Assembly (NCBI RefSeq): GCF_014196965.1
Contig: NZ_JACIEQ010000005.1
Span: forward strand, 124,001 to 188,000
Length of the DNA stretch: 64,000 nucleotides
Reading direction: 5' to 3'
DNA from: Actibacterium naphthalenivorans
GTDB lineage: Bacteria > Pseudomonadota > Alphaproteobacteria > Rhodobacterales > Rhodobacteraceae
Shown here: one piece after another, positions 4,398-10,057 of the stretch
Layout of the letters: every line of letters starts with the position of its first letter
How positions within the stretch are numbered: position 1 is the first letter of the stretch
Program-made: the position numbers and the translations under genes
The notes under the pieces: generated by a model
The model's database searches: none
Told to the model about the DNA's origin: nothing
Seen by the model: the letters and a program-made list of their open reading frames with translations, nothing else

Positions 4398-6164
4398 GTG
4401 GCCTGGCGCCGCTTCATGACCGGGCGTGCCTTCCTGAATGTCGAATGCTCGGCCACCGGCCGGCGCTGGGTCGGCCCCAGCGGCGAGGATGACCGGCTGT
4501 CGCAGGCGATGGAACAGATCACCCGCCTGCCCGCCGCCGTCTGCCGCATCCTGACCCGCCGGGGCGTGGCCCCGGACGAGGCAGAGGCTTTCCTGGCCCC
4601 TGCCCTGCGCGATCTGCTGCCCGACCCGCTGACGCTGCGCGACATGCACCGCGCCGCCGAACGGTTCCTGCGCGCGGTGGACCGGAACGAACGTATCGCG
4701 GTCTTCGCCGATTATGACGTGGACGGCGGCGCCTCTGCCGCGCTGCTGCTGAGCTGGCTGCGGCAGATGGGCCGCGACGCCACGCTTTATATCCCCGACC
4801 GGATCGATGAAGGCTATGGCCCCAACGTGCCCGCGATGCAGGCGCTGGCACGGGATCACGATCTGATCATCTGCGTCGATTGCGGCACGCTCAGCCATGA
4901 GCCGATCGCGGCGGCGCGGGGGGCCGATGTGGTAGTGCTGGATCATCACCTGGGTGGCGAAACCCTGCCCCCCGCGCTGGCGGTGGTGAACCCCAACCGG
5001 CAGGACGAAACCGGCGATCTGGCGCATCTCTGCGCGGCCGGCGTGGTGTTCCTGATGCTGGTCGAGGCCGGGCGTCAACTGCGCATCGCGGGGCGCAAGG
5101 GCCCGGATCTGCTCGGCTTTCTCGATCTCGTGGCGCTGGCCACCGTGGCCGATGTGGCGCCTCTGACCGGCGTCAACCGCGCGTTGGTACGCCAGGGGCT
5201 GACGGTGATGGCCCGGCGCCAGCGCCCCGGTCTCGTGGCGCTTGGCGATGTGGCGCGGATGGATACCGCGCCCACGCCCTATCACCTGGGCTTTCTGCTG
5301 GGGCCGCGGGTGAACGCCGGCGGGCGCATCGGCAAGGCCGATCTGGGGGCGCGGCTGCTCTCCACCGACGATCCGGCCGAGGCCGCCGCGCTGGCCGAGC
5401 GGCTGGATCAGCTCAACACCGAACGGCGCGAGGTCGAGGCCGCCGTGCGCGACGCCGCGCTGGCGCAGGCTGAAACTCGGGGGCTGGACGGGCCGCTTGT
5501 CTGGGCCGCAGGCGAAGGCTGGCATCCCGGCGTGGTCGGCATTGTCGCCTCGCGGCTGAAAGAGGCCACCAACCGCCCGGCCATCGTCATCGGCCTGGAC
5601 GGGGACGAGGGCAAGGGCTCCGGCCGCTCCGTTTCCGGGGTCGATCTGGGCGCGTCGATCCAGCGGCTCGCGGCTGAGGGGCTGTTGCTTCGCGGCGGCG
5701 GGCACAAGATGGCCGCCGGCCTGACCGTGGCGCGCGACAAGCTGGAACCGGCCATGGCGCGCTTGGCCGAGCTGCTGCACAAACAGGGCGCCGGTACCGC
5801 CGGCCCCGCCGACCTGCGGCTCGACGGGGTTCTGATGCCCGGCGCCGCCACGGTGGAGCTGATCAGCCAGATCGAGGCGGCGGGCCCCTTTGGCGCGGGC
5901 GCGCCGGCGCCGCGCTTCGCCTTTCCCGACGTGCAGATCGCCTTTGCCAAGCGCGTCGGCGACAGCCATCTGAAGATCAGCTTCGGCGACGGGCTCGGCA
6001 CCCGGATTGACGCCATCGCCTTTGGCGCCTTCGACACCGGGCTCGGCCCGATGCTGGAGCAGCACGGCGGCGCGCGCTTTCACCTTGCCGGGCGGCTGGA
6101 GATCAACACCTGGGGCGGGCGGCAGCGGCCGCAATTGCGCCTGGAAGACGCGGCCCCGGCCTGA
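4398..6164 (+). CDS. recJ: Single-stranded-DNA-specific exonuclease RecJ
   Basis: This 5'-3' ssDNA exonuclease of recombination and mismatch repair acts in the cytoplasm. The 588-residue frame has DHH-superfamily motifs: FADYDVDGGASAALLL (near 97), VDCGTLSHEPI (near 158), VVLDHHLGG (near 176), the DHHA1 motif RGGGHKMAAGL (near 433) and a C-terminal OB-like region. The frame opens at GTG 4398, which has GAGGGG 8 bases upstream. An in-frame ATG at 4416 (MTGRAFLNVECSATGRRWVG) matches the usual N-terminus of relatives and is the alternative start. Confidence 0.93.
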   Translation: MAWRRFMTGRAFLNVECSATGRRWVGPSGEDDRLSQAMEQITRLPAAVCRILTRRGVAPDEAEAFLAPALRDLLPDPLTLRDMHRAAERFLRAVDRNERIAVFADYDVDGGASAALLLSWLRQMGRDATLYIPDRIDEGYGPNVPAMQALARDHDLIICVDCGTLSHEPIAAARGADVVVLDHHLGGETLPPALAVVNPNRQDETGDLAHLCAAGVVFLMLVEAGRQLRIAGRKGPDLLGFLDLVALATVADVAPLTGVNRALVRQGLTVMARRQRPGLVALGDVARMDTAPTPYHLGFLLGPRVNAGGRIGKADLGARLLSTDDPAEAAALAERLDQLNTERREVEAAVRDAALAQAETRGLDGPLVWAAGEGWHPGVVGIVASRLKEATNRPAIVIGLDGDEGKGSGRSVSGVDLGASIQRLAAEGLLLRGGGHKMAAGLTVARDKLEPAMARLAELLHKQGAGTAGPADLRLDGVLMPGAATVELISQIEAAGPFGAGAPAPRFAFPDVQIAFAKRVGDSHLKISFGDGLGTRIDAIAFGAFDTGLGPMLEQHGGARFHLAGRLEINTWGGRQRPQLRLEDAAPA

Positions 6165-6336: not shown

Positions 6337-6411
6337 GGCCCGTTCGTCTATCGGTTAGGACGCCAGGTTTTCAACCTGGAAAGAGGGGTTCGATTCCCCT
6401 ACGGGCTGCCA
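6337..6411 (+). tRNA. tRNA-Glu (anticodon TTC)
   Basis: A 75-base cloverleaf with an encoded CCA end. Acceptor GGCCCGT pairs with ACGGGCT (6401-6407), followed by discriminator G and CCA. The anticodon stem CCAGG/CCTGG (6363-6367/6375-6379) closes loop TTTTCAA, giving TTC at 6370-6372. The T arm contains GGTTCGATTCC. The accessory region begins just downstream, so it is a possible integration site, although no repeat of its 3' end was found. Confidence 0.95.
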
Positions 6412-6900: not shown

Positions 6901-8196
6901 ATGGGGAACTGGCGGAGCGATCTGGAAACCTGGCTGGCGCCGTTTGTAGCGGCGCTTGGACACAAGACGCGGGGGCGGATGTGTCCGGCCTATATTGCCG
7001 GGCTCATTGGGCCGGGTGATCGCAAGAGCGTGCAGCCGATGGCGGCGCGGGACGGGGCGGTCGGCTATGACCAACTGCATCATTTCATCGCCGACGGGGT
7101 CTGGGACAGCGCGCCGCTGGAGGCGGCCTTGCTGGCCGAGGCCGACAGGCTGGTTGGTGGCGAGGACGCCTTTCTGGTCATCGATGATACCTGCCTGCCG
7201 AAGAAGGGCAAACGCTCGGTCGGGGTTGCGCCACAATATGCCTCATCGCTGGGCAAAACCGCGAATTGTCAGTCCCTTGTCTCGGTAACGCTGGCCTCCC
7301 GCGAGGTGCCGGTGGCGGTGGGGTTACGGCTGTTTCTACCAGAGGTCTGGACCAACGATCCCGACCGCATGGCCCGGGCCCGGGTGCCGAATGATCGGCA
7401 AACGGCCCTGAGCAAACCTGCGATTGCCATCGAGGAGATCGACCGGGTGAGGGCTGCGGGTGTCCGCTTCGGCTGTGTGCTGGCCGATGCGGGTTACGGA
7501 TCGAGCGGGCCTTTTCGCCAGGCTCTGAGCGCGCGCGGTCTCGCTTGGGCGGTCGGCCTGTCACGGCGGCAGAACGTTTATCCGGCAGATGTCGGGCTGG
7601 TCTTTCCCGAGGCCAGGCGCGGCCGACGCCGCAAATATCACCTCCCAGACCGCATTGCCGTTTCCGCCGAACAGATGCTGGATCACGGTAAATGGCGGAA
7701 GGTCAGCTGGAGACGAGGGACCAAAGGCAGGCTGAATTGCCAGTTCGCCGCAACCCGCGTCCACATCGCTGATGGCCACCGGCATCGTATGGCAGATGGC
7801 CGTGTGCAAGCCATGCCGGGTGACGAGGAGGCTTGGCTGATCGGCGAACGCCGTGCGACCGGCGAGCGGAAATACTACGCCTCGAACCTGCCAGCCGACA
7901 CCAACCTCAAGGCGCTCGCCGCCGCCGTCAAGGCCCGATGGATCTGCGAACAGGCGCATCAACAACTCAAGGAGGAGCTTGGTCTCGATCATTTCGAGGG
8001 GCGGTCCTGGACGGGTATTCACCGACACGCGCTGATGACGATGATCGCCTACGCCTTCCTGCAATCCCGCCGCCTCAAGGCCGCGGGACGGAAAAAAAAG
8101 AAGGGGTGTATCCCCTTGACGCAAGTTTTGCCCCCCCCCCTGAAAGAACCTTTCACGCCGTGCCCTAAATGTTCTGCCCTCACGATTAACGATTGA
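6901..8196 (+). pseudogene. IS701-family transposase, 3' end displaced by an IS1595-type insertion
   Basis: The frame encodes an IS701-type DDE transposase. The first catalytic Asp lies in FLVIDDTCLPKKGKRSVGV (residues 91-109, D95/D96), the second in VLADAGYG (D196), and the Glu is probably in WICEQAHQQLKEELGLDHF (E350 or E358/359). The native sequence stops at 8102 within GRKKK; everything after codon 400 (GCIPLTQV onward) is read from the inserted element. The original tail resumes at 10058, after the right-hand target duplication. The 5' part is full length and otherwise intact. Start ATG 6901 follows a GGGAGG-type site about 13 bases upstream. Activity without the native C-terminus is doubtful. 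Confidence 0.88.
8103..8126 (+). repeat. IS1595-type left terminal inverted repeat
   Basis: 24 bases starting GGGGTGTATCCCC and ending GACGCAAGT, identical to the inverted right end. The first 13 bases are themselves palindromic (GGGG-TGTAT-CCCC). A run of ten C residues follows at 8131-8140. Confidence 0.93.
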
Positions 8197-8227
8197 CTCC
8201 CCTGTCGTGAGTGCGCATCTGACACTC

Positions 8228-8743
8228 ATGGAACATTCAGCATCCGACATCCTTGTGAACCGTTTGCGCGAGATTGACGCGACGATTTCTGACCTTGAGA
8301 AGGAGCGAAGCGAAATCAAGGTGGCGCTAAGTGTTGTGGCACGATATGTCACGACGCCAAATTCAAGTGCAGCAGAAAGCGTTGTCGAGCGCAAGGGTGA
8401 TACAGATGAACCCACTGCAGGCGCGCCACGCCCTGACGGAATTCCTACACTGTGGGAAATGGCGCGCGAATACCTTTCTTCACGTCAGTCCGCGACAGCG
8501 GCGCAGGTGGTGGGATTCATTGACGGTAAGTATTGGCCTGGCGTGGTTCACGCCCAAGTCGGGCCGAGCCTGTATCGCTTTGTGAATGAGGGGCGCTTGA
8601 AAAAGGTCGGTCGGGGAGAGTTTTCGCTCCCCTCCGAAGAGAATGAGCCGCCCGAGGGCGGCTCAGAAACCGGGGAAGGTGACACTTCCTCAGAACATTT
8701 TGATCGAGACGACCTAGAGGACTCGATCAAACAACTCATCTGA
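8228..8743 (+). CDS. IS1595 passenger protein, coiled coil plus putative winged helix
   Basis: From the ATG at 8228 the product has 171 residues (an in-frame GTG at 8207 would add seven). Residues 1-40 (ILVNRLREIDATISDLEKER) look like a coiled coil. Residues 45-72 are a polar linker. Residues 73-135 (TLWEMAREYLSS ... AQVVGFIDGKYWPGVVHAQV ... LYRFVNEGRLKKVGRGEFSLP) have the helix-helix-helix-beta pattern of a small winged-helix domain. The C-terminal 35 residues are very acidic and probably disordered. I do not recognise a named family. Lying inside the IS ends it is cargo; a DNA-binding helper or regulator role is inference only. Confidence 0.7.
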   Translation: MEHSASDILVNRLREIDATISDLEKERSEIKVALSVVARYVTTPNSSAAESVVERKGDTDEPTAGAPRPDGIPTLWEMAREYLSSRQSATAAQVVGFIDGKYWPGVVHAQVGPSLYRFVNEGRLKKVGRGEFSLPSEENEPPEGGSETGEGDTSSEHFDRDDLEDSIKQLI

Positions 8744-8925
8744 TCCTCTCAGACCAGACCCGGCACTGGAAGATGCCGGGAACTTAGCTGGGAGGTGGTT
8801 CTATGGAACCATTAACTCCCCTCCGGGCGGTGTGCGATGCTTTCATGGCTATCCGCTCGCAGCCCCCGTAAGGTGGGGTATCCCGCTAAAGGGACGGTGG
8901 GGCGGCTTTCGGGCCGCCCCATTCG
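8744..8925 (+). ncRNA. Hairpin-rich candidate structured RNA inside the IS1595-type element
   Basis: Several inverted repeats follow one another. CCCGGCA/TGCCGGG (8759-8765/8774-8780). GGGAG/CTCCC (8790-8794/8816-8820) enclosing TGGTTC/GAACCA (8796-8801/8806-8811). TGCGA/TCGCA (8833-8837/8857-8861). TCCC/GGGA (8881-8884/8891-8894). GGGGCGGC/GCCGCCCC (8899-8906/8913-8920). No credible frame covers the stretch. It begins at the stop codon of the passenger gene, so it could be a structured 3' UTR or an independent RNA. Folding energy was not computed. Confidence 0.4.
8899..8920 (+). terminator. GC-rich hairpin, possible terminator of the passenger gene
   Basis: Perfect 8-bp stem GGGGCGGC/GCCGCCCC with loop TTTCGG. 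The following bases are ATTCGTC, not a T run, so termination efficiency is uncertain. Confidence 0.45.
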
Positions 8926-8986
8926 TCATGCGGAAATTCTTATGCTACAATAGATTACAAGTCAAGAATCTTGGAGCAAATCCATC

Positions 8987-9175
8987 ATGTTATCTCTATC
9001 TAAAGCGCAAAAAACCGGGAAATTAGAAGAGTTTATAGCTCAGGAAGAAGCGCGCGGCGTCGGCCAGATCAGCGCGGCGGAGTTCGATGAAACAGCCGCT
9101 ACTGTGATCAAAACGCCGCTACAAGACGATCAAACATCAGGTTCGCTTCCCAGCGATGGTTCGCCCGGAAAGTGA
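8987..9175 (+). CDS. Small IS1595 passenger protein
   Basis: A 62-residue protein (MLSLSKAQKTGKLEEFIAQ ...) with an ATG at 8987 and GGAG about 10 bases upstream. The first 35 residues are charged and helical; the tail is polar (DDQTSGSLPSDGSPGK). Its last 68 bases overlap the 3' end of the transposase gene on the other strand, so the pair is tail-to-tail. Small convergent ORFs of this kind accompany some IS1595 transposases, from memory. The role is unknown. Confidence 0.6.
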   Translation: MLSLSKAQKTGKLEEFIAQEEARGVGQISAAEFDETAATVIKTPLQDDQTSGSLPSDGSPGK

Positions 9176-10001
9176 ACTCGTCCAAATACCGGCGCATGTG
9201 CTTCTGGCTGATCGAAACATGAGTGCCACGGATCGAATGTTTGAAGTGACGCCAGAAGCTTTCAACATGGTTTGTATGGTGCAGCGTGTCGGTGTCGGCA
9301 TCATACACGGCCCACTCTTTCGCTCCATGCTTCACCGCAACATGCGAATATCCATGCTCTTTCAGTAAGCGGTAGCTGTAGAGTTCATCGGTCGATACGG
9401 TCGAGCCAGCCTCAACGGTTTTGAGTGTTTCGGCCCGAAGGGTTTTCAGTTTCACGTCAGGGATAATCTCGGTCACGAGACGCCCGCCGCGTTCCTTGAA
9501 GCCCATGACAATGGTTTTGCCAGCGGCACCGCGCCCACGTTTGCCGGGGCGCTTGCCGCCCACGTAAGCTTCATCAATCTCGACATGACCTTGAAGCATG
9601 GCTTTCAGGTCGTGCTTGTCCATCTGCTCACGGATTTTGTGACCGATCCGCCATGCGGTCTTATAGGTCACCCCAAGTTGACGTTGCAGTTCCTTGCCGG
9701 AAACCCCGTGCCGCGTCGTGACAAACAGGTAGATCGCATAGAACCAAACCTGGAGCGGCGTCCGGGTATCTTGGAAAATGGTGCCAGCCGTAGGGTAGAC
9801 ATGATCACCACAGGCGGCACAGGCCCACGCACGGCGGTTGCTCATGCGGTGGAAGGTGCTTTCAACACCGCAGGCTTGGCAAACGTGACGATCCCCGAAG
9901 CGAACGCGGAAGATGTGTTCAAGGCAGGCTTCATCATCGGGGAAGCGCTTGAAGAAATCGCGGACACTAAAGTCGGGGGATGCTGATTTGCTCTTTTCCA
10001 T
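9108..10001 (-). CDS. IS1595-family transposase
   Basis: This 297-residue ISXO2-like transposase has an N-terminal zinc ribbon (C41-x2-C44 and C61-x2-C64), a helical DNA-binding region (GVSGKELQRQLGVTYKTAWRIG, about 99-120) and a DDE-type core: VEIDEAYVGGK (D143), VSTDELYSYR (D205) and TNHVESFWRHFKHSIRGTH (E247). It looks complete, ending MFDRLVAAF. The start lies about 48 bp inside the right inverted repeat. All catalytic residues are present, so the inner element may still be mobile. Confidence 0.93.
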   Translation of the reverse strand: MEKSKSASPDFSVRDFFKRFPDDEACLEHIFRVRFGDRHVCQACGVESTFHRMSNRRAWACAACGDHVYPTAGTIFQDTRTPLQVWFYAIYLFVTTRHGVSGKELQRQLGVTYKTAWRIGHKIREQMDKHDLKAMLQGHVEIDEAYVGGKRPGKRGRGAAGKTIVMGFKERGGRLVTEIIPDVKLKTLRAETLKTVEAGSTVSTDELYSYRLLKEHGYSHVAVKHGAKEWAVYDADTDTLHHTNHVESFWRHFKHSIRGTHVSISQKHMRRYLDEFTFRANHRWEANLMFDRLVAAF

Positions 10002-10025
10002 GCATCATATATAGCAAATCGGCTT

Positions 10026-10049
10026 ACTTGCGTCAAGGGGATACACCCC
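10026..10049 (-). repeat. IS1595-type right terminal inverted repeat
   Basis: Perfect inverted copy of 8103-8126, followed directly by the second copy of the target duplication AAAAAGAA (10050-10057). Confidence 0.93.
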
Positions 10050-10057
10050 AAAAAGAA

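Follow-up and report, generated by a model that had tools for sequence, protein, structure and literature searches.

A transporter IS1595 element of Actibacterium naphthalenivorans with an exchangeable cargo slot and a candidate structured mini-ORF RNA

A complete IS1595 element with two cargo genes

A complete IS1595-family element of 1,947 bp lies at 8103-10049 of a 64,000-nt stretch of the Actibacterium naphthalenivorans genome (contig NZ_JACIEQ010000005.1, positions 124,001 to 188,000; hereafter the window). Its ends are 24-nt terminal inverted repeats that are 100% complementary, one at the cargo end (8103-8126, + strand) and one at the transposase end (10026-10049, - strand), and both are immediately flanked by the same 8-bp sequence, AAAAAGAA (8095-8102 and 10050-10057). 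The target duplication of the IS1595 family is 8 bp long. The 297-aa transposase (9108-10001, - strand) combines a zinc ribbon with a DDE domain and scores above the cut-offs of Pfam DDE_Tnp_IS1595 (156 bits) and the zinc ribbon (47 bits) as well as of NCBIfam transpos_IS1595 (204 bits, cut-off 75). With its DDE transposase and zinc ribbon, inverted repeats and 8-bp duplication, the element is a member of the IS1595 family, and with non-transposition genes between its ends it is a transporter insertion sequence (IS). Transporter ISs with passenger genes are already known in this family, as stated in PMC8496243, which cites Siguier 2009. An IS1595-type element with two cargo genes had been described here in an original prediction made from the letters of the window, and the repeats, the duplication, the transposase profiles and both open reading frames (ORFs) bear that description out.

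The first cargo gene (8228-8743, + strand) encodes a 171-aa protein with an N-terminal helix, a winged helix and an acidic tail; an alternative GTG start at 8207 would make it 178 aa. The coiled coil and the winged helix that had been proposed for this protein, the latter around residues 73-135, agree with the structure predicted by AlphaFold2 from five related sequences. The model has a helix at residues 5-42 and a winged helix of three helices and two strands at residues 75-133, the latter with a predicted local distance difference test (pLDDT) score of about 60-78, in a prediction with a mean pLDDT of 60 and a predicted template modelling score (pTM) of 0.35. Using VIA-align, residues 72-136 (8441-8635, + strand) were superimposed on a linker-histone wing domain (Z 9.7, root-mean-square deviation 1.7, 64 aligned), and linker-histone, BlaI, MecI and Z-alpha winged helices all match this same part with Z of 8.6-9.7. 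The winged-helix fold is common and indicates just that nucleic-acid binding by the 171-aa protein is plausible; the acidic tail is of low confidence in the model and probably disordered. The protein has no Pfam or NCBIfam match at E<=1 and no PADLOC match at E<=0.01. Searches with tblastn gave no relatives in plasmids, phages or genome contigs (one search returned 70 pattern stretches, with 0 confirmed), and a single weak match (E 7.6e-4) was seen among 291 other genomes of the order.

The second cargo gene (8987-9175, + strand) encodes a 62-aa protein without a Pfam or NCBIfam match at E<=1. It is convergent with the transposase gene and overlaps its 3' end by 68 nt. Outside the overlap, the mean proportions of nonsynonymous (pN) and synonymous (pS) differences in this frame were 0.23 and 0.74, a ratio of 0.32 as opposed to 1.26 and 1.65 in the other two frames; the comparison covers 28 pairs from 8 of 9 close elements (L018 was missed by the search pattern), and pS is near saturation. 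The low ratio in this frame relative to the other two argues that it is a real protein, and by this comparison the frame is under protein-level selection outside the overlap. Ahead of the gene stands a promoter-like TCGTCA-17-TACAAT (8923-8951, + strand), one of 2 such sites that the promoter scan gave in the element, with 1.1 expected.

The element is present as a single copy in its own draft genome (49 contigs) and interrupts a transposase gene of the IS701 family towards its 3' end (NCBIfam transpos_IS701, 409 bits for the frame at 6901-8196; beyond the element, from 10050 on). A tRNA-Glu(TTC) gene (6337-6411, + strand) about 0.5 kb ahead of the IS701-type gene marks a possible integration neighbourhood. 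Elsewhere in this genome there are divergent IS1595 transposase matches at C1:68438-69289 and C1:1577060-1577630, one of which is 37% identical and one of which consists of two pieces and is likely broken.

A nearly fixed rear and an exchangeable slot

Relatives were gathered with the window transposase as the query. Genome contigs gave 38 loci and viral contigs 18, and 2 of 117 plasmid records were taken. Relatives were present in 24 of 385 genomes of the class and 2 of 292 of the order, the window's own counted in each, and in 4 of 398 genomes of the phylum, counting the window's own and one class genome already seen. The end search was made on 88 loci (relative loci are designated L### and the window element WIN): a transposase match was lacking in 1 and ends in 7, and of the 80 with candidate ends 57 were kept. 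To be kept, an element needed repeats matching at 18 or more of 24 positions plus a duplication of 6 or more of 8 bases, or else repeats matching at 21 or more positions; the kept transposases are 36-100% identical. A further 16 loci with candidate ends failed these end criteria, and seven were removed by name, namely the duplicates L011, L076, L077 and L078, the partial transposase L046, L119 at a contig end, and L044. The latter is a simple 1,034-bp element (27% identity) that was set aside and that speaks against universal cargo in the wider family.

Every one of the 57 kept elements bears a frame of at least 100 aa besides the transposase, and all exceed simple IS size, from 1,646 bp (L104) to 4,557 bp (L101). 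The 8-bp duplication is perfect (8/8 bases) in 47 of the 57, duplication being one of the two ways to be kept. The clade shows a layout of a nearly fixed rear, made up of the transposase and a convergent small protein, and an exchangeable cargo slot, in which genes of defence or toxin-antitoxin type are frequent. When a profile of the 62-aa protein was built from 20 sequences of this set, it matched 47 of 57 at E<0.05 (weakest two, E ~0.001); matches were counted solely opposite the transposase strand, and the strand is therefore no independent finding. Overlap of the small gene with the matched transposase 3' end is seen in 46 of these 47 elements, and in 25 of 34 elements with other cargo the small gene overlaps, or sits no more than 14 nt from, the neighbouring frame.

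WIN and L010, whose transposases are 97% identical as proteins, align as DNA at 86% over positions 1-1027 and then only over the last 26 bp. In other elements the slot holds GmrSD/HEC-06 (L024), a PIN DUF4411 gene with ImmA/IrrE (L012, and alike in L023 at 78% DNA identity), a type IIG restriction-type enzyme (L084), DUF5343/PDC-M34A (L028), PDC-S45 (L089 and L100), a RecG-C/pAgo-like match (L027), NYN (L033) or Peptidase_M78 (L025). Cargo from 16 selected elements was scanned with PADLOC, and 7 of them, WIN not included, gave defence matches. Coiled-coil plus winged-helix-like cargo, judged by reading the sequences, recurs in 13 elements (WIN, L015, L018, L020, L022, L030, L033, L034, L074, L080, L106, L111 and L124), and cargo of this wing type was also seen by eye in L079 and L134.

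Parts of the slot move separately, since WIN and L018 have in common the structured RNA described below (78% DNA identity over ~180 bp) and not the protein (21% identity), and the reverse holds for L015 and L018, which have the protein gene in common (74% DNA identity over 372 bp) in an alignment that stops short of the RNA. The suggestion that the two proteins and the gap between them form one conserved set was not supported: the 62-aa type is nearly fixed, at 47 of 57, the 171-aa protein varies from element to element, and RNA and protein are exchanged independently. These comparisons also bear on whether the cargo regulates only its own element's transposition, with the winged-helix protein bound at the element's ends or at the promoter of the transposase gene, into which transcripts of the 62-aa gene would run antisense. 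The overlap of small gene and transposase would suit such control, which accounts for the 62-aa gene better than for the rest; in other elements, however, the place of the 171-aa protein is taken by unrelated restriction- and PIN-type genes, which do not resemble regulators of transposition, and we consider this explanation very unlikely.

A recurrent two-gene cargo (~170 + 255 aa) was observed in L010, L013, L017, L019, L025, L031 and L032 by clustering and in L075, L097, L099 and L107 by eye. It has no match where it was scanned (L010 in Pfam and PADLOC, L019 in PADLOC), mostly ends overlapping the small gene, and looks like an undescribed toxin-antitoxin or defence pair. One element recurs as L010:246-2681, in a Tateyamaria contig, and as L011:310-2745, in a contig of a Parvularculaceae metagenome-assembled genome; the flanks do not differ over the 245 and 691 bases compared, and the two are probably one locus mis-binned.

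A predicted structured RNA with a UUA-containing mini-ORF

The 243-nt gap between the genes for the 171-aa and 62-aa proteins folds at -102.5 kcal/mol (z -3.87), with 0 of 200 shuffles as good, as expected from the hairpin-rich gap that had been noticed in the original prediction. The structured region was placed by folding and motif tests at 8640-8970, with the + strand favoured. It takes in part of the 171-aa gene at its 3' end (a segment of 326 nt has z -5.3 on the + strand and -4.6 on the - strand), where a hairpin at 8645-8664 is terminator-like when read on the - strand (8665-8644). Further along, on the + strand, lie the RNA motif CCAGACCCNGNNCTGGNAGNNNCNGGNA (8754-8781), a pattern written from WIN, L018, L020 and L134, a Shine-Dalgarno-like GGGAGG (8790-8795), and a mini-ORF, MEPLTPLRAVCDAFMAIRSQPP (8803-8871), whose start codon is at a hairpin loop and whose codon 4 is UUA. 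A strong hairpin without a U run follows the mini-ORF at 8898-8921. UUA is rare in the window, at 25 of 16,299 codons in its long ORFs.

The gap between cargo and small gene measures 160-642 nt in 12 of the 13 wing-type elements (L124 has an intervening frame), and the folding z in those 12 ranges from -0.6 (L015) to -8.5. Nine elements with other cargo and a gap of at least 60 nt gave z from -0.2 to -5.9, with -1.3 to -5.9 for the four that were later classed as RNA-type. Longer segments beat shuffles on both strands in 15 elements, at z -3.4 to -6.0 on the + strand and -0.3 to -5.6 on the - strand (15 of 16 segments were folded, as the L106 anchor was not found).

A common core, first seen by eye and then tested, consists of a Shine-Dalgarno sequence, a start codon at or in a hairpin, a short frame and an in-frame UUA. 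When 22 RNAs (17 from IS1595 elements and 5 from viral contigs) were compared using hand-picked start codons, UUA counts by frame 0/1/2 were 21/0/1; an in-frame UUA is present in 20 of the 22 and stands 9-24 nt after the start in 19 of these 20. The peptides have 6-22 residues in 21 of the 22 RNAs and, by eye, no evident hydrophobic stretch. A mechanical test for Shine-Dalgarno, start and in-frame UUA, with Shine-Dalgarno variants defined after seeing the sequences (the same rule was used for shuffles) and with a stretch further upstream supplied for L030, L079 and L111, was positive in 13 of 17 RNA-class elements (shuffles 0.39) and in 2 of 30 others (0.9 expected). The motif was found in 11 of the 13 elements picked by protein alone, and L134, fetched later from a family genome, has GGAGG followed by ATG CCC TTA. 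The mini-ORF is conserved among these RNAs. A plain structured regulatory RNA or a recombination hot spot, whose hairpins would act as a bidirectional terminator and cassette junction beside an incidental mini-ORF, would explain why cassette breakpoints adjoin the RNA and why both strands fold about equally in several elements. A terminator, however, needs neither the placement of UUA in frame nor the motif at the frequency seen here, and the core is also present in viral contigs without a transposase match, which makes this explanation quite improbable.

In L030, L074 and L127 the core is preceded, on the cargo (+) strand, by a tRNA-like domain with a 7-bp acceptor stem, G3-U70, a discriminator A (A73) and a T arm (L030 ~5706-5790, L074:2247-2320 and L127:8450-8522, each on the - strand in locus coordinates). 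The domain is inside the 3' end of the winged-helix gene in L030 and L074. A strict scan for it found 2 in the 17 elements, 0.000 in shuffles and 0 on the antisense strand. The Rfam model of transfer-messenger RNA (tmRNA; RF00023) matched L074 at E 2e-10 and L127 at E 2.6e-5, values that come from short stretches chosen after the domain was seen; both scores are below gathering because the middle of the model is missing, and the alignment to L074 skips it. These two RNAs are like tmRNA in their tRNA-like domain with G3-U70, A73 and T arm; they differ from it in lacking the mRNA-like part and in having an ORF with a Shine-Dalgarno and start codon of its own, and WIN is without the domain. ARAGORN called no tRNA or tmRNA in 19 loci. 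A standard tmRNA was dropped as an identity for the WIN copy, where the Ala-type tRNA-like domain was not matched.

Rfam 15 gave 0 matches at the gathering score in 14 relatives (8 of them RNA-class), and WIN also remained below gathering. The WIN matches to BjrC1505, PtaRNA1 and Sso133 are all far below this score, and the first two were dropped as identities for that reason. An attC-like integron site, a resemblance only, was dropped, as were group II intron, CRISPR repeat and retron, which were general comparisons only. A whole-RNA alignment of 13 sequences was poor, with 32% column identity.

The core was located by pattern scans in 5 viral contigs, and a wider pattern gave the same 5. An IS1595 transposase was matched at E<=1e-3 in 0 of the 5 viral stretches fetched, which were sometimes less than the whole contig. 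The original prediction had raised the question whether the cargo always lies within the same IS1595 ends and had recognised neither protein; the 171-aa protein has no profile name, and it is the RNA core, not the protein, that was found outside such ends. The L033 core was not found in plasmids and matched one viral contig, that of L106; the L130 core was not found in plasmids and gave 2 partial matches in phages (E ~4) that were taken as chance. Neither the WIN-type hairpin nor the tRNA-like pattern was found in viral contigs (0 each), and the RNA pattern matched once in 385 class genomes, in the already known L074 element. L136, the sole viral match to the WIN RNA pattern, lies in overlapping reading frames with no Shine-Dalgarno/start/UUA arrangement seen and no tRNA, and was dismissed as chance. 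In L129 a tRNA-Arg(CCT) of 97 nt, unusually long, lies directly ahead of the core (L129:3775-3871, - strand).

Possible action of the RNA on ribosomes

The defence-type cargo of sister elements, the occurrence in viral contigs, the ribosome-binding features and the tmRNA-like domain led us to propose that the window element may carry a ribosome-directed minigene RNA under winged-helix control, serving as a defence or addiction module, which we regard as possible and short of probable. Ribosomes would load on the mini-ORF RNA and meet the rare UUA, as a hungry codon, within the first codons. There the ribosome would either sense a shortage of the UUA-reading tRNA or, by stalling and dropping peptidyl-tRNA, cause one. 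The module would be restrained by the winged-helix protein, which may dimerise through its N-terminal helix and would bind promoter DNA or the RNA. Release of the module during infection or element loss would allow the RNA to slow translation, so that the host would retain the transposon because of the RNA-protein pair. The 62-aa protein would serve the element itself as an accessory factor and be expressed alongside any cargo. Transcription, translation, stalling, control and benefit of the RNA module are what we infer in this proposal.

Several observations, together with the hand-picked start codons and the late choice of Shine-Dalgarno variants and upstream stretches mentioned above, weigh against the minigene proposal. 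The motif test misses 4 of the 17 RNA-class elements (L022, L079, L098 and L124), and L028, L079, L098 and L112 had joined the class because of the core. An out-of-frame UUG precedes in L033, L080 and L106, and L079 and L128 have UUG only; in L022 the UUA stands at 66 nt, and no stop codon closes its frame within the stretch compared. In L134 the mini-ORF doubles as the tail of a 77-aa frame, and a second, out-of-frame UUA is present there. Covariation is thin: among 6 sequences, compensatory changes affect 5 of 17 pairs (term +0.34), and in the viral-type core 1 of 5. As for the tRNA-like domain, 15 of the 17 RNA-class elements are without a tmRNA-like one, tmRNA was not matched in WIN 8600-8990 at E<=5, nothing was returned at E<=1 when 901 bases of L127 were searched, and the L030 domain was not called tmRNA, its only match being tRNA-Sec at 0.43.

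The strand of the RNA, with the + strand favoured, may be either, and both strands may be made. The cargo strand has the in-frame UUA, the tRNA-like domain and the better folding z in 12 of 15, and a pair at columns 34-69 is kept on it (G-U, A-U or G-C) in 6 of 6 sequences. On the other side, 10 of 14 elements have, at a shared position on the - strand, a TTGAC (with a best spacing of 17 for 8 of them and 18 for the other 2), which in WIN belongs to a promoter-like TTGACT-18-AAGAAT reading into the RNA region (8936-8965, - strand), and the hairpin at 8665-8644 is terminator-like on that strand. The second hexamers behind TTGAC match just 2-4 of 6; the mean promoter score is 8.2 of 12 on the - strand, against 6.4 for background and ~7.1 for the + strand. 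Compensatory pairs on the reverse strand number 6 of 20 (+0.56), compared with 5 of 17 on the + strand, and the folding z of the two strands are close. From these promoter and terminator signals an antisense RNA may be the real product. A type I toxin-antitoxin-like pair would then consist of the + strand mini-ORF mRNA and a fully overlapping - strand antisense RNA, with the TTGAC box near 8965 and the hairpin at 8665-8644 as its limits. Such systems share a tiny ORF and a possible overlapping antisense RNA with the locus described here, which differs in its extra DNA-binding-type protein and in peptides that are short and not evidently hydrophobic. In addition, the counts of promoter-like (2 vs 1.1) and terminator-like sites (3 vs 2.1) in WIN are within shuffle range, and we judge the type I pair unlikely.

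The mini-ORF could also be the leader peptide of an attenuator, in which a ribosome stalled at UUA would alter the downstream hairpins and permit transcription or translation of the gene for the 62-aa (or a second small) protein. Consistent with this, a strong hairpin separates the mini-ORF from the 62-aa gene in WIN, T-rich tails follow the hairpin in L015, L020 and L022, and a small gene stands behind the RNA both in IS1595 elements and in the viral contigs L129, where a small-protein relative is right behind the core (profile E 8e-7), and L131. A second small protein family behind the RNA, recognised by eye (VSTLASKVLSG..KPT...RTLAASALSQD-like), occurs in viral contig L131 (after 11900, + strand), L030, L111 and L079. 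The WIN hairpin has no U run, however, and the 62-aa gene has a promoter-like site after it; in L127 the only sense frames past the core are 26 and 82 aa long (from 198 and 567 nt on), the opposite strand carries an HNH gene, and nothing obvious is there to be led; and L130 is ambiguous, as its 157-aa sense frame is overlapped by a 361-aa antisense frame. Because L130 has a sense frame behind its core, we rated the attenuator slightly up and the minigene proposal slightly down; we hold the attenuator to be somewhat unlikely and rank it second after the minigene.

With regard to the minigene proposal, inhibition by rare codons in a minigene is known for lambda bar, as indicated by titles in the reference list of PMC8012679. 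In sequence, the RNAs here resemble a bar-type minigene in having a Shine-Dalgarno sequence, a very short ORF, a rare codon near the start and a phage context, and differ from it in a larger structured RNA, ORFs of 6-22 codons and a winged-helix partner. The rare codon of the lambda bar minigene is AUA, and that of the RNAs here is UUA. A broader possibility, which we put forward as rather doubtful, is that these RNAs form an undescribed ribosome-directed family, tmRNA- or minigene-like, in which a structured transcript would bear a Shine-Dalgarno-led UUA mini-ORF and, in some members, an alanine-type tmRNA-like domain, moving as a module for defence or addiction between alphaproteobacterial IS1595 elements and phages, with a winged-helix controller in the transposons. 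A literature search on IS1595 together with structured RNA found nothing, within the searches made.

These elements are like the known IS1595 transporter ISs in transposase family, terminal repeats, 8-bp duplication and passenger genes, whereas here a whole clade has one exchangeable slot and a nearly fixed convergent small protein, and 17 of the 57 bounded elements carry a structured mini-ORF RNA. Even without a mechanism for the RNA, the layout of fixed rear and exchangeable slot and the selected small protein help to annotate hypothetical genes beside IS1595 transposases. The minigene prediction is a sharp one, since it concerns one rare codon in a mini-ORF. If it is true, a small type of transposon would be a delivery vehicle with a single swappable slot for defence or addiction, and one of its payloads would be a translation-targeting class of RNA without a match in Rfam 15.

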